Source of the DNA: Phoenicibacter congonensis
GTDB taxonomy: Bacteria; Actinomycetota; Coriobacteriia; Coriobacteriales; Eggerthellaceae
Assembly: GCF_900169485.1 (NCBI RefSeq)
Contig: NZ_LT821227.1
Coordinates: forward strand, 930,001 to 994,000
Direction of reading: 5' to 3'
Length of the DNA stretch: 64,000 nucleotides
Shown here one piece after another: positions 47,584-64,000 of this stretch. Position numbers and translations under genes: made by a program. Each line of letters starts with the position of its first letter. Positions within the stretch are counted from its first letter, which is position 1. The notes under the pieces were generated by a model. It worked only from the letters and a program-made list of their open reading frames with translations, searched no databases and had not been told where the DNA came from.

Positions 47584-47613
47584 AATAATTTTGTTATCAT
47601 TCACCCCCCCCAA

Positions 47614-48046
47614 ATGTGCTGAATCGCTTTTGGAATGTTAGTGACTGCAGCGTTCCGCATGTGGAGAAGCGCTTTTTTCCTATTCTGACGGCCGAGAGCC
47701 ATTTGCCAAAGCGTCTCCCACATGTGCTGAAACGCTTTAGAAGTGCTGGTGACTGCAGCGATTCGCATATGCTGCTGCGTTTTTATCTTTTTTGTCGGCC
47801 GAGAGCCATTTGCCATAGTATATCTCCCGCATGTGCTGAATCTCTTTTGGAATGTTAGTGACTGCAGCGTTCCGCTTGTGGAGTAGTGCTTTTTTCCTAT
47901 TCTGACGGCCGAGAGCCATTTGCCAAAGCGTCTCCCGCATGTGTTGAATCGCTTTTGGAATGTTAGTGACTGCAGCGTTCCGCTTGTGGAGTAGTGTTTT
48001 TTGCCTATTCTGACGGCCGATAGCCATTTGCCAAAGCGTCTCCCGT
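47614..48046. repeat. Four tandem repeats of 108-109 bp
   Basis: Units begin with ATGTGCTGAATC or a variant at 47614, 47722, 47831 and 47939. They share AATGTTAGTGACTGCAGCGT, GACGGCCGAGAGCCATTTGCC and GTCTCCCGC blocks. Unit 2 is the most diverged; units 3 and 4 are nearly identical. Because 108 is a multiple of three, a 168-codon minus frame runs through it, but unit 3 shifts the frame and no start signal is present. I treat it as non-coding satellite-like DNA, more GC-rich than its surroundings. Confidence 0.8.
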
Positions 48047-48669
48047 GCGCGGTGAGGTGCTCTTTTGGACTCTTAATCCCTTGCTTTGTTTGGAATAGAT
48101 TCCTCATTGTTTATTTAAGTCCTTAAACGCTAATCTAAAAAGGTGCAAATACGCGAATGTCTATTACCAATTAATTTAAAAGTGGGTGGCAAATCTTCTA
48201 AAGATAAAAAAACTATTCTGTTTTTTAGTCATCAAGACAATAAAAGAGCATTCTGCTTTTAATTGGTTTTTGATTAGTCTGTTTATTTAAGCGTCAAAAT
48301 GCCAGCAACATTTTTGTGTACAAAATATCGTTCTGTACTTTTTTAAGCTATTTGATGATCGAATATATTAGTGAACGTTCGTTTTGTCATTATTTATAAC
48401 TGAACGAACATTCTTTTATTAAACATGTTTTTAGGTATATTGTTAATCAATCTAAACTTGATAACATTCAAATGCTATTTTTTGCTACAAATTTTATGTT
48501 GACTGAATAATTAAATAAGTGCTCAAAAATTCAAATTTTGCCCAGTGTATCGATAGTGTTAAAAAATATTTTTTCGAATAATTATTTTGAATTTGGTGTA
48601 TAACAGTTACGGTTAAAGTTACCAAAGTAACATTTATTAAATTTTAGGGATTGAAGGGGATGAACTTAA
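48047..48669. other. AT-rich gap with a TetR-type inverted repeat (48373-48413)
   Basis: About 620 bp with no gene. It contains GAACGTTCGTT (48373-48383) and its imperfect inverse AACGAACATTC (48403-48413), each resembling a TetR-family half or full operator (AACGnnCGTT core in the first). A second symmetrical patch, GTTACGGTTAAAGTTACC followed by AAAGTAAC, lies around 48608-48632 next to the start of the permease operon. These are probably the control region of that operon. Confidence 0.5.
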
Positions 48670-51065: not shown

Positions 51066-51891
51066 TGGTGCCAGTCATGGAATTGCAACGGTCGACAATG
51101 GTGCCAGTCATGAATACCTTCGACATTGGTGTCAGACATGAATTTAGACTGTTAACAATGGTGCCAGAGATGAATTAAGGCTAAGCTGTTGATTGTGCAA
51201 CACGACATTGATATTATGCCCCTCCGCGACTAACTTTTAGATTAGTCCCTCTCTTTTGCGCGACTGCAACTAAGCGGTCGCCCCTTTAACATAAAAATCC
51301 CGTGACTGAGATACGGCCACGGGATTTTTTAGCACTGGTGACAGACATGAATTACATTCCGTCGACATTGGTGCCAGACGTAAATTACATTCCGCCATCA
51401 TTGGTGTCAGACATGAATTACAACGGTCTACTAAGGTGCCAGACATAAATTACATTCCGTTGACACTGGTGACAGACATGAAATGTAAGCACTGGTGCCA
51501 GACATAATTTGAGACTATTGGCACTGGTGACAGACATGAATGCTTTGAGACTATTGGCAATGGTGACAGACGTAAATTGCATTTAGCATCTGAGCCAGTC
51601 ATCACGCAATGGTGCCAGACATAAATTACATTCCGTTGACACTGGTGACAGACATGAAATGTAAGCAATGGTGCCAGACATAATTTGAGACTATTGACAC
51701 TGGTGACAGACATGAATGCTTTGAGACTATTGGCAATGGTGCCAGACGTAAATTGCATTTAGCATCTGAGCCAGTCATCACGCAATGGTGCCAGACGTAA
51801 ATTACATTCCGTCGACATTGGTGACAGACATTAAATGTAAGCACTGGTGACAGACATGAATTCGCAGTAAAAGCATCGCCGTTCCAGACAT
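51066..51891 (+). repeat. TGGTGNCAG repeat array I with a 176-bp higher-order period
   Basis: Twenty cores matching TGGTGNCAGWCRTRAA start at about 51066, 51099, 51127, 51159, 51336, 51369, 51402, 51434, 51467, 51493, 51524, 51561, 51610, 51643, 51669, 51701, 51737, 51786, 51819 and 51845, all on the plus strand. A degenerate copy is near 51881. Common spacings are 31-33 and 26 bp. The segment beginning TAAATTACATTCC recurs at 51446, 51622 and 51798, an exact 176-bp period. No gene is present. Confidence 0.9.
51293..51330 (+). terminator. Terminator inside repeat array I
   Basis: AAAAATCCCGTG (51293-51304) and CACGGGATTTTTT (51318-51330) form a stem with a 13-nt loop and tails that work in both directions. 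It probably ends the permease transcript. Confidence 0.75.
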
Positions 51892-52611: not shown

Positions 52612-53431
52612 TTATAAGTTAGAAGAACCTTTATTTAATGCTTTAAGCAATAACGCTAACATAGTTGAAATAATTCTTGCAAATACAGTGCTCCACCAGA
52701 TTGTGATCTGTCCTCCAAACAGCGGTGGCAAAACTAGCATTAATCCAAGCATGAGGACAGGTTCAATAAATGTCAAAACATAGGACAATGCTGCTTTTTC
52801 TGTTGCATAAAATCCAGCAGTGGAAATTCTTGTAATTGCTAAAAAATGAAACCGAAACTAGAAAAATTGGGATGATTTTAGCAATCTCAGAATTTACTGT
52901 ATCTGAAGAACTTAACAATGTTCCTACATGCCATCTGCCAAAATACATGATGGCGCATCCGATAAAAGCAAGATTAACAGGAAAAATGTATGCCATACGT
53001 TTTACTTCTGCTAACTCATTTGCTTTTCGTTCACCATAATATTTGCTCATAAGTGGCTGACTACCATCAACTACGCCTTGCAAAACCAAATAGATAATGC
53101 AGATGATATAAGAGATGCCTGCATAGGTAGCAATCGCTTCTTCTCCGTCATAGAATGCAGAAAATCGATTGATGATTACCAGTGAAATATTAGGAGTCAG
53201 AGCGAGTCCAAAAGGAGCAAGTCCAACTCTGAAAATTGATTTGCAAAGATTCCGAAATTCACCTGAATTTATGCAAATACACAATTTCTTCTTTGACACA
53301 GAATACAAAAGAGCAATGAGAAAGGTGACTCCCTGACCAATAATCGAGGCAAGAGCTGCCCTGCCCATTCTTTGATCAAAAACCCATACCAGCAAATAAT
53401 CAAGAATGATATTTGCAACAAAACCGCCTAT
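52612..53431 (-). pseudogene. MATE-family transporter, truncated and frameshifted
   Basis: From the 53431 end the frame reads NIILDYLLVWVFDQRMGRAA and continues through ISYIICIIYLVLQGVVDGSQ and MSKYYGERKANE, typical of MATE multidrug exporters. Near 52840 the frame shifts by one. In the other frame the protein continues ITRISTAGFYATEKAALSYV and PPLFGGQITIWWSTVFARII to a TAA at 52612. Only about 270 of the usual 450 residues remain; the N-terminal half is gone. The break at about 53431 is exactly where repeat array II begins, so expansion or recombination of the array probably removed it. Confidence 0.85.
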
Positions 53432-53437
53432 TTACAC

Positions 53438-54045
53438 TGGTGCCAGTCATGAATTTCTTTGCGAATAAACTTCTGTGCTCGAGTTGTATTTACACTGGTG
53501 CCAGACATGAATGTGTGTCATCAGCATTAGTGCCAGACATGATTTTCTTTAAGTTTGCACTGGTGCCAGACATGAATTTCTTTACGAATAAACTCCTGTG
53601 CTCGAGTTGTATTTACACTGGTGCCAGTCATGAATTTCTTTACGTATGTTCTTCCGTGTTTGAATTAAGTTTGCACTGGTGCCAGACATGAATTTCTTTG
53701 CGTATGGATTTCAGTGTTATAGCTGTATTCACACTAATTACAGACATTGATGTCATCCATCAGTATTAGTGCCAGACATTAGTTTTATTGCGTATGAATT
53801 TCCTTCTTAGATCTGTATTCACACTGGTGCCAGTCATGAATGTGTGTCATCAGCACTGGTGCCAGTCATGAAATTCTTTGCGCATGGACTTCCGTGTTTG
53901 ATTAAGTTTGCACTGGTGCCAGACATGAATTTCTTTACGAATAAACTCCTGTGTTCTCCTATATTTACATTGGTGCCAGACATGAATTTCTTTGCGCATG
54001 GACTTCCGTGTTTGAATTAAGTTTGCACTGGTGTCAGACGTAAAC
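53438..54045 (+). repeat. TGGTGNCAG repeat array II with 58/32-bp quantised spacing
   Basis: Thirteen cores start at 53438, 53496, 53528, 53561, 53619, 53677, 53735 (degenerate), 53767, 53825, 53857, 53913, 53971 and 54029. Spacings are 58, 32, 33, 58, 58, 58, 32, 58, 32, 56, 58 and 58 bp. Sequence between cores is also related (AATTTCTTTGCG and CTTCCGTGTTTGAATTAAGT recur). All copies read on the plus strand. Small frames through it on either strand only reflect the repeat. Confidence 0.9.
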
Positions 54046-54163
54046 TTCATAGATACAACAAGTCCCTTTAATAGGACGTTTCGTTATTGAGATTGTGTTC
54101 AAATATTATTTGAATAGTAAAATTTAGAAATTGATATCTGTCGTATTGAGCGTGAGCATTTTT

Positions 54164-55165
54164 ATGAATGGTGTTTTCGGAAATACTTTCGATTTTAATC
54201 GGAATGGAAACATTGACCCTTTTGAGCGCGCTGCAGAATATTCGCTTGTAAATCACATTCTGGATGGAAATGACAAGTTTACCAGGCTGAGTGATAAGCA
54301 TGAGCATTCTTACAATTCCAGTTTTGAAGGAGAATCCAACACAACCACTGATTTTCCTAGCTCGTCTAGTGACATTGACGAGGACGATACTTGGCTCAAT
54401 GATTCTGACGATGATGATTTCTGTTTAGATGATTCTGACAATGATAACTGGTTAGATGATTTGGACGATGACGATTGGCCCATTGATACTGATGAGGATG
54501 GTTCTTTAGCTGGGAATTACGACTTCAGCGAGGCTACTGACTTTATCTTTAACAAAAAAGAATGCGAGAGTGCGGACAATACTTCAGCTGAGAAGCGCAG
54601 CTCGCAAGAAGATGATTTTGGGTATACAGAACCCGATTTTTTAAAAAAATCATGTGCGAGTGACGTATCTTCTGACAGTAAAGTCGCGAATGTCTGCGAC
54701 GAATCAACTTCAAATGAGTTCGATTCCTTTTGCCTAGATTATGTTAGTTCTGGTATTTCACCGGGTTATTCAAGCTCTTCAAATATTGACAATCAGCCTC
54801 CTTCCGATTCTAGTGATTTAGACATTGATGCTTATAACATCGAGAAATATCCCCTTGGATCGAAACTGGGATATTTTAAAGAACCGATAGAAAAAGGCTC
54901 AATTGTGCATCCAGACGTAAAGGTTAACTTACTGACGTCTTTGATGTATGGGGTAAAAAAGATTCCGTATGAGGCTCATAAAAAAATGCAAAAAGCAGGT
55001 GCTCTTTGTTTTAAGGATCGGATTAAGCTTTGGGAAGAACGCAGAGATTATCTTCTAGAACATCACTTTGATTTTGATAGGCTATCAAAAATGAGTAAAA
55101 AGGATGCACTTGATATGATTAAACAAGCTGGCTTAAACCCCTATGACTATTGGGATATGTTCTAG
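54164..55165 (+). CDS. EF-hand-like, Asp/Ser-rich acidic protein
   Basis: A 333-residue protein (344 if a TTG at 54131 is used). Near the start FDFNRNGNIDPFERAAEY contains an EF-hand-type calcium loop (D-x-N-x-N-G-x-I-D-x-x-E). Residues about 60-120 are extremely acidic (for example DSDDDDFCLDDSDNDNWLDD), followed by a Ser-rich middle. The C-terminal 90 residues look folded and helical (YEAHKKMQKAGALCFKDRI and KKDALDMIKQAGLNPYDYWD). No signal peptide or TM is clear. Function unknown; calcium binding is inferred. It is bracketed by repeat arrays II and III. Confidence 0.7.
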   Translation: MNGVFGNTFDFNRNGNIDPFERAAEYSLVNHILDGNDKFTRLSDKHEHSYNSSFEGESNTTTDFPSSSSDIDEDDTWLNDSDDDDFCLDDSDNDNWLDDLDDDDWPIDTDEDGSLAGNYDFSEATDFIFNKKECESADNTSAEKRSSQEDDFGYTEPDFLKKSCASDVSSDSKVANVCDESTSNEFDSFCLDYVSSGISPGYSSSSNIDNQPPSDSSDLDIDAYNIEKYPLGSKLGYFKEPIEKGSIVHPDVKVNLLTSLMYGVKKIPYEAHKKMQKAGALCFKDRIKLWEERRDYLLEHHFDFDRLSKMSKKDALDMIKQAGLNPYDYWDMF

Positions 55166-55211: not shown

Positions 55212-55850
55212 TGGTGCCAGTCATAAAAGAGGGCAGAGTTTTGTACTCTTAGGTTGTTAAGACAATTTTAATTGGTGTCAGTCATGAATCATTGGTGCCA
55301 GACGTGTCTCGCTGGCGCTAATCATAAATTAAACAAATTTATATAAGTCTTTTCTTGCTTTATTTGTTTTTTATAAAATGTGTCGTTCATTAAACAATGG
55401 TGCCAGTCATAAAAGAGGGTAGAGTTTTGTACTCTTAGGTTGTTAGGACAATTTTCGTTGGTGCCAGTCATGAAACATTGTTGTCAGACGTTTCTCGCTG
55501 GCGCTATGCAAAAATTAAGCAAATTTACATAAGTCTTTTCTAGCTTTTTTTGTTTTTTATAAGATGTGTCGGTCATTGAACAATGGTGCCAGTCATAAAA
55601 GAGGGTAGAGTTTTGTACTCTTAGCTTATTTCTTGTAGCTGTAAACAAACCTTAGCCGCATCTTTGTTCTGCATAGTTTTAATTAGTACACATAACGGAT
55701 TTGTTCTTTTTAAGTAAAAATTTTTAACTATACTTTCTTGTTCAATCTGACGCATCAAAAACTTTAACGAACCAGAGTAAATGCCATTTCTTTATGGTGA
55801 CAGTCATGAATTACAGTCATGAATCGTTGGTGCCAGACATAATATTTAAA
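55212..55850 (+). repeat. TGGTGNCAG repeat array III with a 186-bp period
   Basis: The block opening TGGTGCCAGTCATAAAAGAG recurs at 55212, 55398 and 55584, exactly 186 bp apart. Inside each full unit a doublet of cores 20 bp apart is seen (55273/55293, and the equivalent near 55460/55480). Each block also carries AGAGTTTTGTACTCT, a short hairpin. Further cores lie near 55797 and 55829, just before the FmdE gene. Confidence 0.85.
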
Positions 55851-56516: not shown

Positions 56517-57000
56517 TAGTGTCAGACGTTTTTCGCTATAGCCAAAACAAGTCTCAATGGTTCGACGGTGGTGTCAGTCGTGCATCATTGGTGTCAGACA
56601 TAATTTTTGTTCTTTTGGGATATTCTCCTAAGGCTTTCGTCTTATTCAGAACTCAGCTGTAAATGGTGACAGTCTTGAATCACTGGTGCCAGACTTGATT
56701 TGAAATCTGCAAAACGCTGCAAGTAAGTAGTTTAATTTGCCTAACAGATTCTTATGAAATTAGTTAAGGTTTTAAAAATTGTGATTGAACCAAAAGCTTT
56801 TCCCTTCGCTTAGAACATCAACTCAGTACATGAGTGCAAGGGATAATGAAGCAATTTTACATTAGTGCCAGACATGCATCATTGGTGTCAGACATAAACT
56901 TTTGACATAAACTTTTTACCTGTGAAAATATGACCTAGATTTTTCTTTGTTATGGACATCCCGAGTGGAGTCAGACATGAGGCATTGGTGCCAGTCATAA
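56517..57000 (+). repeat. TGGTGNCAG repeat cluster IV (doublets 20 bp apart)
   Basis: Cores lie near 56517, 56568/56588, 56663/56683, 56862/56882 and 56983. Three are pairs whose starts are exactly 20 bp apart, joined by TGAATCAYTGG-like sequence. No gene is present between the FmdE gene and the membrane-protein pair. Confidence 0.85.
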
Positions 57001-57872: not shown

Positions 57873-58760
57873 AGGTGCCAGACATCAGTCCCTGGTGCCA
57901 GTCATGTTTTACAGTTGCAGGTCAGTCACAGGTGCCAGTCATGTCGCACTAGTGCCAGACATGAATTTAGTGTCAAAGAAAAATCAACTGCAATTAGCAA
58001 AAGAGTCAGTCGAACCACATTTGTGCCAGACATGATTTTTAAATTGTTTAATTTACTTATTTCATGGCGTTGACATTATTGGTCAGCGCCTTTTAAGTTA
58101 TTGCGAAAAGCGTTGTGGCTAGCTTATAGCGTTGGTGTCAGACATGACGCATTGCATCATGGGTTACCAGCTCCAGCTGAATATACTGTTCAAATATCAA
58201 ATTGATTCAATTCGAAAGGTGCCAGCCGTTAGCCACTGGTGCCAGACATATATTTGGTTCAAACGAATCAGGCTGATCTAAAGTCGCAAAAGTGACAAAC
58301 GTGTTATATTGTTGACAGACATGAATTCAAGATTGCATGTGCCAGTGCTGCCATTGATGACAGTCTTCAAGCGCTGGTGCCAGACATGAATTCGGGATTA
58401 GATAAAAGTCTTTAGTCTTGGTGCCAGGCATGTCTCATTGGTGTCAGTCATGTCGTACCGTTGATCTTGCACTGGTGGCAGGCGTAACACATCGTTCGCA
58501 GATGTAATGATTAGTAACTACAGTTGACTTGATTCGTTCAATTATTTTGTGATGTATCGGTAATTTACTGTTGGATTTATCGGGAAATTACCTGTATAAA
58601 GGTGTTTTTATTAATTGTTCATTTGTCGCAAAAATTCGTTTTTAATAATTATCTGGATTTTTTTGACTCAATTTTCACAGCTCTGCCTATATATTTCACT
58701 GGTGACAGACATGAATGCAGAAATCGTCGGTTGAGCCAGCAATGGTGACAGACATCAATT
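57873..58760 (+). repeat. TGGTGNCAG repeat cluster V, upstream of the RAYT gene
   Basis: About 17 cores, many degenerate, lie between 57873 and 58760. Doublets 20 bp apart start at 57873/57893, 57930/57950, 58355/58375 and 58419/58439. Two cores near 58700 and 58742 lie about 200 bp before the transposase start. No gene is supported between 57840 and 58946. Confidence 0.85.
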
Positions 58761-58946
58761 TCTACTGAAATTTTCTTAGAGATTACCCAGCATAGACTTA
58801 TTTTTTACAAAATCATCATCTTGACGTTCACTTATTCAACACTTAAATCATCAGTTTTGGATAACCATTTCTTTCTTATTTTTCTTCACTTTTATGACTA
58901 GGCTTATTTATCAACAATTAAGACTTCGCGAGAAAGAGGAGACAAG

Positions 58947-59717
58947 ATGTCAAGACCGCCAAGATGCAACTCTCCGATTGGGGTTCTAAATATCGGGCAA
59001 AAAGGGCACAATGATCAGGTGATTTTTTATTCTGATGAGGACCGTGGGTATTACATTGAATGCCTGCAAAATGCATGCGATAAGTTTGGGATAGTGTTGC
59101 TCGCCTACGTGCTGATGTCGAACCACATTCATGCGCTGTTTTATGGGGACATTAAAAAGTGCGACAAGGTTTTTAGGTCCATTGGGTCGCGGTACGTTAA
59201 GTGGTTTAATCGAAAATATGGCCGGTCGGGCACCCTGTGGAATTCGCGTTTTTATTCGAAACCTGTGCAGGATGAGCTGCAATTTTTGCAAACCGCCGCA
59301 TACATTTTCAACAACCCCGTCAAGGCGGGAATGGTCAAACGCGCAGAAAATTACAAGTGGTCTTCATTCAAGGATTTAGACTCTGAAGAATTCGATGCTA
59401 AAGCTAAGGAAATCCTAGACACTACGCTTTCGATTTCGTATCTCAAGCAGTACACACATGACGTTGCCGAGAGTCAAATGAGCCCCGATGACGGGAAAGA
59501 ATTTGAAGTGATTCCAAGCAGCACACCATCTGATATGTTGGTGATTGATGCGGTGAAAAGAATTGTGAAAGAGAAAAATCTTGGCAGAATATCTGCTCTG
59601 TCCAGTTCACTTTTAAGAAAACTTGTGAAGTCGCTTCTAAAACTTGGATCTAATATAAATCAAATTTTTCGGGTCACGGGTCTGACTAGGCATCAAGTTA
59701 GTATTCTTGCTACGTAA
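58947..59717 (+). CDS. REP-associated tyrosine transposase (RAYT, HUH/Y1 family)
   Basis: A 256-residue Y1 transposase. The HUH motif is HIH at 60-62 (AYVLMSNHIHALF). The likely catalytic tyrosine is Y119 in TAAYIFNNPVKAGMV. FRSIGSRYVKWFNRKYGRSG and LWNSRFYSKPV complete the family pattern. The C-terminal 80 residues contain an HTH-like end (NINQIFRVTGLTRHQVSIL). RAYTs act on short interspersed palindromic repeats rather than on their own gene ends. GAGGAG lies 7 nt before the ATG. It is intact and single-copy in this window, and repeat clusters lie on both sides. Confidence 0.9.
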   Translation: MSRPPRCNSPIGVLNIGQKGHNDQVIFYSDEDRGYYIECLQNACDKFGIVLLAYVLMSNHIHALFYGDIKKCDKVFRSIGSRYVKWFNRKYGRSGTLWNSRFYSKPVQDELQFLQTAAYIFNNPVKAGMVKRAENYKWSSFKDLDSEEFDAKAKEILDTTLSISYLKQYTHDVAESQMSPDDGKEFEVIPSSTPSDMLVIDAVKRIVKEKNLGRISALSSSLLRKLVKSLLKLGSNINQIFRVTGLTRHQVSILAT

Positions 59718-60046
59718 GGACGTCTTTATAACTTTAGCATTTTTTAAACTAAAAGTTCTGAGCAGGGTATTTCGTTTTGTCATATAAGTTTTTGTGCTGC
59801 TGCGTTGCGAGAACACGACCTCTGATACTTACAGTTGACCTAACTCTGTACTAGACGAAAGTTCACTCTAATTGAAGCGTTGTCATTAATTTCACTTGAA
59901 CTTTTTGGCTAGTTCATGGCTTGTTTTGTTTTGTGGCATTTTCCACCCCTTAAATAATCCTTGCGAGTTCGCTTATTTTGTATTTACTGGCGTTTTTCTC
60001 GTGATTTCTGCTTATTCTTTTCGTAATTTGCTATCTCCCTCGCAAA

Positions 60047-60385
60047 AGTGCCAGTCATGAAACACAAGTGTCAGTCGTGTCTCGCTGGTTTGGTTACGCT
60101 GCAAGTGCCAGTCATGAAACAGTTATTGTGAACTTAACGCCAGTGATGAATCTATGCTCATGCTTCATTAGTGCCAGTCATGTATTTTTACGCTAGAAAA
60201 ACACATGCAGCAATCGTAACAAATACAAATCATTAGTGCCAGTCATGAATTCCCAGCACTGGTGACAGACGCAAAGCATTAGTGCCAGTCATGGATTTCA
60301 AAGCATTAGTGCCAGTCATGAATTTCAACGCTAGTAACAGGCATGCAGCACTGACAGACGTGATGCAATGGTGCCAGACATAAAC
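60047..60385 (+). repeat. TGGTGNCAG repeat cluster VI
   Basis: About 12 cores, many with TAGTG or AAGTG in place of TGGTG, run from 60047 to 60385 in the plus orientation. Several spacings are 20 or 26-27 bp. The gap 59718-60046 before it shows no gene and no recognisable element. Confidence 0.8.
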
Positions 60386-60392
60386 TGAATGT

Positions 60393-60506
60393 TGTTATAT
60401 GTGACAGTGCTTGCACGAATCAATTCTAGATAGGTGGTCTCATTTGGTGGGTATGAGTTTGGTTTAATTGAAATGAGTTGAATGCGGAAGTCTGCCACAT
60501 ATAACA
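60393..60506. repeat. 114-bp element with 15-bp terminal inverted repeats
   Basis: TGTTATATGTGACAG (60393-60407) and CTGCCACATATAACA (60492-60506) are inverted with a single mismatch. The ends contain GTGACAG/GTGGCAG, close to the core of the surrounding repeat. It could be a MITE-like element or a large RNA hairpin. Immediately after it, ACACCGCCATT occurs twice about 45 bp apart. Confidence 0.6.
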
Positions 60507-62440: not shown

Positions 62441-62630
62441 TGGTGCCAGTCATGAATGTGAAGCTTTTACAACGGTGCCAGACATGAATGTATGTTATCA
62501 GCACTGGTGCCAGTCATGAATGTCGAATTCAATTGCTCTTTCATTGGTGTTTTTACACTGGTGTCAGACATGAATTTTACACAGATGACAGACATGAATG
62601 TGTGTCATCGGCACTGGTGCCAGACATGAT
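62441..62630 (+). repeat. TGGTGNCAG repeat cluster VII between divergent genes
   Basis: Cores start near 62441, 62473, 62505, 62559, 62583 (degenerate) and 62615, with spacings 32, 32, 54, 24 and 32 bp. They fill the divergent control region between the LuxR-type regulator and the MBL hydrolase, leaving the last 220 bp before the hydrolase free. One more copy lies near 63971, after the hydrolase terminator. Confidence 0.85.
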
Positions 62631-63958: not shown

Positions 63959-64000
63959 ATGTTCGTACAACTGTGCCAGACATGAACAAATGGCTTTTTT

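Follow-up and report, generated by a model that had tools for sequence, protein, structure and literature searches.

The simplest account of our analysis is that a RAYT family of class 2.1 (TIRYT-like) has radiated in the 1.45-Mb genome of a gut Phoenicibacter (Eggerthellaceae), the genus being that of the nearest named relative of the RAYTs, Phoenicibacter congonensis. A radiation that uses its own oriented direct repeats and a competence-type promoter explains the whole best, and we consider it probable. The window analyzed here is a stretch of 64,000 nucleotides corresponding to positions 930001 to 994000 of the genome (1.448 Mb, one contig). It holds an intact RAYT gene among arrays of the repeats. 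Across the genome, repeat tails match RAYT lineages, the repeats are strand biased and bound copied modules, and the RAYT promoter is common to competence genes in two species.

The RAYT gene and its paralogues

The gene, encoding a Y1/HUH single-strand DNA transposase, occupies positions 58947 to 59717 (+ strand) and is intact, as the original prediction had stated. The product of 256 aa matched Pfam Y1_Tnp (4.6e-10) and scored 70.7 bits against NCBIfam REP_Tyr_transpos, slightly below the curated cut-off (80). Across 48 aligned relatives, the HUH motif (H60-I-H62) and the catalytic Y119, N123, and P124 (YxxxNP) were invariant, and Q239, R242, and G245 of the C-terminal tail were conserved and near-invariant, the tail pattern being common to relatives with the C terminus GxSIRQIxRLTG. 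The AlphaFold2 model was confident (pLDDT 90), with five helices predicted at residues 196 to 255 in a helix-turn-helix (HTH)-like tail; a Pfam search with the protein returned no HTH match. The PDB structure closest to the model was 4er8, E. coli TnpA-REP in complex with a REP hairpin, followed by the IS608 and ISDra2 transposases (2vjv and 2xma).

The protein has the features of the Y1/HUH superfamily, namely, HUH, one tyrosine in Y-x-x-x-NP, and the Y1_Tnp fold, together with the HTH-type extension behind the Y1 core that marks class 2.1 and TIRYTs. This tail puts it in RAYT class 2.1 as defined by Quentin et al. (PMC6006769), who treat that class as equivalent to the TIRYTs that De Nocera et al. 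described (PMC3733652).

The gene had been taken for a single-copy domesticated transposase, a view overturned by a protein search of the genome, which found five intact RAYT paralogues, several of them mobile copies, plus one copy cut by the contig end. Three near-identical and two sister copies were copied as modules. Broken copies, three or so, lie at 595, 1379, and 350 kb. Between recent copies, dN/dS was 0.06 to 0.22 and the differences were mostly synonymous; the RAYT proteins have therefore been kept functional.

Oriented direct repeats and the copied modules

The core TGGTGNCAG occurred 59 times in the window compared to 1.6 copies expected and a maximum of 5 across 100 shuffles. All 59 copies were on the + strand, and 58 lay between 51.0 and 62.7 kb. 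The repeat consensus combines CA-N-TGGTGNCAG with a tail that depends on the field, giving a direct, largely non-palindromic unit of 20 bp. The repeats are mostly intergenic and form head-to-tail arrays on the + strand at 51068 to 51859 (20 core copies in a mosaic of 20- to 36-bp units), 53440 to 54043 (12 copies), 55214 to 55842 (8 copies, with a 186-bp tandem), 56519 to 57000 (8 copies, with 20-bp tandem doublets), and 62443 to 62629 (5 copies). The position of the RAYT gene between repeat clusters had been correctly described, the gene being flanked on its 5' side by 14 core copies (57875 to 58757) and on its 3' side by 10 (60048 to 60413). A further array begins at 63973 and runs past the window end at 64000 to genome position 994173. 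Viewed unit by unit, the arrays contain exact head-to-tail 20-mers interspersed with larger units, 26 to 136 bp long.

Other open reading frames were noted in this region. A 344-aa frame that is rich in Asp and Ser over a long stretch and has no match in Pfam (54131 to 55165) and a MatE-family frame of just 210 aa, probably a truncated transporter gene (52763 to 53395), each lie between two arrays. A small frame at 47601 to 48107 consists of four tandem copies of a 108-bp unit, 82% alike, that has no relation to the RAYT repeats.

The repeats had been thought to be palindromic REPs forming a new RAYT/REP pair, with the core palindrome in its commonest form and closely spaced REP-like doublets. 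The link of RAYT and repeat is supported, but the REP nature is not, the repeats being direct and oriented and the doublets mostly exact head-to-tail tandems of the 20-bp unit. A reading of the repeats as degenerate REPs, palindromic but with an atypical foot and mobilized as hairpins, would suit an enzyme of the RAYT family and the presence of CTGG-TG-CCAG. The full palindrome CTGGTGCCAG was perfect in only 68 of 276 sites and is missing in three quarters of them, however, and the folding energy of the sites nearly equaled that of shuffled ones (−2.5 versus −2.1 kcal/mol), on which grounds the palindromic reading was rejected. The site consensus also lacks a GTAG/GGAG-type foot, as had already been suspected, and the orientation does not alternate. 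Each repeat type has more than one RAYT copy instead of a single immobile full-length gene. A classical REP/RAYT pair is thus extremely improbable.

Tailed repeats lay in three fields, at 578 to 613 kb, at 981 to 1015 kb (the window and its continuation), and at 1348 to 1448 kb plus the contig start. A spacing of 20 bp was the most frequent in the third field and ranked among the top two in the window field. The tails read CCATAA at 578 to 613 kb, WCATGAAT (in short, WCATGA) in the window, GGCAAA at 997 to 1015 kb, and ACATAA or ACTT at 1348 to 1413 kb. Within 20 kb of an intact, cut, or broken RAYT, an area making up 17% of the genome, lay 93% of the 411 tailed repeats. When sorted by nearest RAYT, 54 of 97 WCATG tails belonged to the window gene, 23 of 29 GGCA/GCTT tails to the 1013-kb gene, and 63 of 80 CCATR/GCATR tails to the 595-kb pseudogene; each enzyme therefore has its own repeat type nearby, a trait of REP-associated RAYTs.

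The co-occurrence of repeat and RAYT proposed as a check was borne out. Among 199 genomes from the class, the pattern TGGTGNCAGNCATRA had 150 copies in the window's genome and 0 or 1 in each other, so that the repeat was absent from the 198 others apart from these chance matches. In the second Phoenicibacter species, the sole other member of the genus and represented by one metagenome-assembled genome (MAG) 84% complete, GTGTCAGAGATAA repeats surround one RAYT (52% identity) and GGGGACGGAGGTGAA repeats the other (47% identity); these repeats are mostly sense relative to their own RAYT gene and of the same kind with different tails. From these counts and tails it follows that the repeat accompanies the RAYT subfamily and the tail accompanies the RAYT lineage.

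Further repeat loci were observed in the class. In the second species, a third repeat family, GTGACGGAGATAA, forms arrays on contigs C11, C24, C335, and others of G001, near which the incomplete MAG showed no RAYT. A 496-aa frame there (locus L258, G001:C333:3613-5100) contains RAYT-type repeats inside the reading frame, and the orthologous region of the window's genome (G000:C1:611820-612923) aligns as two separate pieces with an array between them. Ten sense direct repeats lie upstream of or around the gene at the Coriobacteriia RAYT loci L134 (GTGCCAGTTGGTGCAAAGG) and L037 (GGGTGACAGCAGGACGGGG), which suggests further RAYT-repeat pairs.

The origin is marked by dnaA at 259.9 kb and a skew minimum at the same place (260 kb); the skew peaks at 1016 kb. 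Leading-strand sense was found for 306 of 316 repeats in the second and third fields, compared to 207 of 456 copies of the bare core elsewhere; the first field, around the 595-kb pseudogene, was of mixed orientation (30 of 56). Since arrays copy locally, these counts are not independent of one another. A repeat in leading-strand sense is on the lagging-strand template, which is the single strand that IS200/IS605 elements prefer.

The window gene is part of a module (57875 to 60383, + strand) copied to two other places in the genome, on the other strand, at 1421.8 to 1424.2 kb (91% identity) and from 1446.6 kb to the contig end (95%) plus the contig start. Homology between the copies begins at the left terminal repeat GTGCCAGACATCA (57875 to 57887), and the right terminal repeat is GTGCCAGACATAA (60371 to 60383), at whose 3' end the three-copy homology stops; the copies are alike up to TGGTGCCAGACATAA and then diverge. 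A second, independent pair at 1350.2 to 1352.2 and 1398.5 to 1400.5 kb (95% identity) starts at TGGTGCCAGACTTC and ends within a GGGTCAGAC repeat. Both RAYT-bearing modules, about 2 to 2.5 kb in size, were thus copied to distant loci, and their ends are repeats without clear hairpins. At the orthologous sites upstream of gmk and of comEA in the second species, neither module nor repeats were found. The contig is broken inside the third copy (G000:C1:1446629-1447956 and 1-361) with about 350 bp missing, so the assembly is not fully closed there.

A different origin of the arrays was weighed, in which replication slippage and homologous recombination in gene-poor DNA produced them and the RAYTs are there by chance or were carried along. 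For the majority of repeated units above 40 bp, the other copies are no more than 700 bp away, and where module copies differ by indels, these span exactly repeat to repeat, as expected of slippage. Slippage does not explain the same core with a different tail around each RAYT lineage in two species, and this origin is also at odds with whole-module copies bounded by repeats hundreds of kb apart and with the lack of the repeat in every other genome of the class examined. We regard a passive RAYT as unlikely, although slippage or homologous recombination between repeats could be behind local array growth, many repeated units being local. The RAYT is very probably the engine of the repeats, as had been proposed, because the repeats lie near RAYTs, the tail changes with the lineage, and the copied modules end at repeats.

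A promoter shared with competence operons

A BLAST match of the DNA immediately 5' of the RAYT gene to a distant locus revealed a block of about 107 bp (TTCACTnnTTCAACA ... TTTCTTTCTTATTTTTCTTCACTTTTnnnACTAGGCTT; 58809 to 58915, + strand) common to all the RAYT genes and pseudogenes of the fields and to competence operons. A matrix with five RAYT promoters as its sole input was run over the whole genome, with four Markov-simulated genomes, one strand each, serving as the null (best score, −0.8), and the target genes were identified through translation and Pfam. The top scores outside RAYT genes were those of yraN-comM-dprA (82.8), comEA-comEC (73.5), and a SpaA-like surface protein (50.3), followed by a degenerate Y1 gene (9.0), rpsF-ssb (7.5), recA (5.7), cpaB-tad (5.3), and an MFS gene (5.1). 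The surface protein (G000:C1:517650-520799) is secreted, of 1049 aa, and has a C-terminal MPDTG-type anchor. In the window's genome, the ssb, recA, and tad scores are barely above the null and near those of the few non-competence matches; they gain weight from the second species.

There the promoter motif has a different version and the same regulon. With up to two mismatches, TTTTTNCTTCACTGTTCAAA was found in 2 Mb only at RAYT 1, comEA, rpsF-ssb (twice), and cpaB-tad (control, 0). Exact matches of AAAACTTCACWATTCTT were at RAYT 2 and comEA; at two mismatches, it was found at cpaB-tad, rpsF-ssb, yraN-comM, recA, comEA again, and one site inside rpoB, which is a chance match. Since both motifs were drawn from RAYT and comEA promoters, only the remaining matches are independent evidence, and their targets are genes of DNA uptake and single-strand handling. 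A promoter element common with com genes is therefore present in both genomes. Tad genes are required for transformation in the actinobacterium Micrococcus luteus (PMC4322843).

The regulon common to both species suggests that the RAYTs are probably expressed together with natural competence. In 24 other genomes of the Coriobacteriia, the sequences upstream of RAYT and comEA showed no such similarity; the link therefore looks genus-specific, and a general one across the class found no support in them. In the open-licence papers searched, no description of a RAYT-competence link was found, and the only transposase-like precedent in a competence regulon was that of the pneumococcal ComX-regulated Rpn-family pseudogenes (PMC6560143). 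These resemble the window RAYT in being a transposase- or nuclease-like gene under a competence promoter and differ in protein family, in being pseudogenes in that strain, and in having no repeat system.

The shared promoter might instead be a relic of RAYT insertion or duplication beside com genes, with no regulon behind it, given that a RAYT module copy lies 2.7 kb from comEA. Yet neither repeats nor a RAYT are near yraN-comM-dprA, and in the second species an identical set of genes carries that species' own form of the motif, at RAYTs as well as at com genes. The promoter blocks are also still recognizable between RAYTs that have reached saturation at synonymous sites, and such a relic appears quite improbable. 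The repeats could also be bound by a host regulator or a nucleoid protein instead of serving as RAYT substrates, as a conserved 20-bp unit in mostly intergenic arrays, one of them immediately upstream of the comEA promoter, would allow. Com promoters without an array (yraN, and comEA of the second species), the lineage-specific tails beside each RAYT, and the modules ending at repeats speak against this reading, which we hold to be very unlikely.

Comparison with known systems and proposed mechanism

A close likeness is to TIRYTs or RAYT class 2.1 (PMC3733652 and PMC6006769; Bertels RAYT group 1), which share with the window system the Y1/HUH core with C-terminal HTH tail and flanking non-REP repeats with a G-rich core; some of their TIR families are moderately repeated as well. 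TIRYT motifs are terminal inverted repeats, whereas the Phoenicibacter repeats, with the core GGTGNCAG, are direct, present in hundreds of copies, and in tandem arrays, their tails follow the RAYT lineage, and the RAYTs are tied to a competence promoter; the GGGGWSAS terminal inverted repeat is not found here. At 78 loci of distant relatives, GGGGWSAS was enriched in sense upstream and antisense downstream of the gene, forming an inverted repeat, which makes the window system a TIRYT relative whose repeats have turned direct, tandem, and numerous. The candidate rule that all class 2.1 RAYTs have direct GTGNCAG repeats was discarded, GTGNCAG not being enriched among the same 78 relatives, and a de novo k-mer search around distant RAYT loci returned mostly noise. 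Quentin et al. (PMC6006769) detected no REP-like repeats accompanying class 2.1.

TnpA-REP with its REPtrons and the REPINs of E. coli and Pseudomonas have in common with the window system a single-strand HUH enzyme of the same fold, short genomic repeats, a repeat type for each enzyme, and repeats around the gene. Unlike the window repeats, REPs are palindromic, with a GTAG-type foot and alternating orientation, and their RAYT genes are single-copy in REPtrons immobile as units, whereas the window RAYT is multi-copy and module-borne. IS200/IS605 elements (IS608 and ISDra2) share the Y1 transposase fold and the lagging-strand-template orientation and, by analogy, may share a cleavage motif at the right end. 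In contrast to them, the window system has no recognized subterminal hairpins and no tnpB, a 20-bp repeat occurring in arrays forms its end motif, and its protein has an additional C-terminal domain. The pattern of module ends is what an IS200/IS605-like enzyme would leave if its cleavage motif were the repeat itself.

We infer the following route for binding, cleavage, insertion, and competence induction. Each RAYT would recognize, as a single strand, its own repeat, with the core CA-N-TGGTGNCAG and the tail of its lineage (WCATGA in the window, ACATAA/ACTT, CCATAA, and GGCAAA). As in IS200/IS605, the enzyme would cleave on the 3' side of the repeat, and the excised segment, itself ending in a repeat, would be inserted beside another repeat. 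Each such insertion would add one more repeat, so that arrays would grow head to tail in one orientation, and segments bearing the RAYT gene could move likewise. Going by a promoter of the type of comEA-comEC, yraN-comM-dprA, ssb, recA, and the Tad pilus, the RAYT would be made when the cell imports and processes single-stranded DNA, with SSB, RecA, and DprA present.

This timing might serve the element, with its moves coinciding with DNA exchange, or the host, with incoming strands being captured into arrays. In the form of competence-coupled capture, RAYTs would cleave imported single strands at repeats and insert the resulting pieces into chromosomal arrays, a possibility that we put forward tentatively and consider rather unlikely. 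If it is true, the array fields would be landing zones for foreign DNA and the system an integron-like device built on an HUH transposase.

RAYTs are widespread and kept by selection. To our knowledge, class 2.1, which makes up a large share of RAYTs, had no known REP-like repeat partner before. In the radiation described here, class 2.1 RAYTs have clear repeat partners, lineage-specific tails, and mobile modules, and the promoter common to comEA-comEC, dprA, ssb, recA, and the Tad pilus points to a concrete and testable timing, the import of single-stranded DNA. If true, a family of transposases would be linked with natural transformation, and the build-up of strand-oriented arrays would have an explanation.
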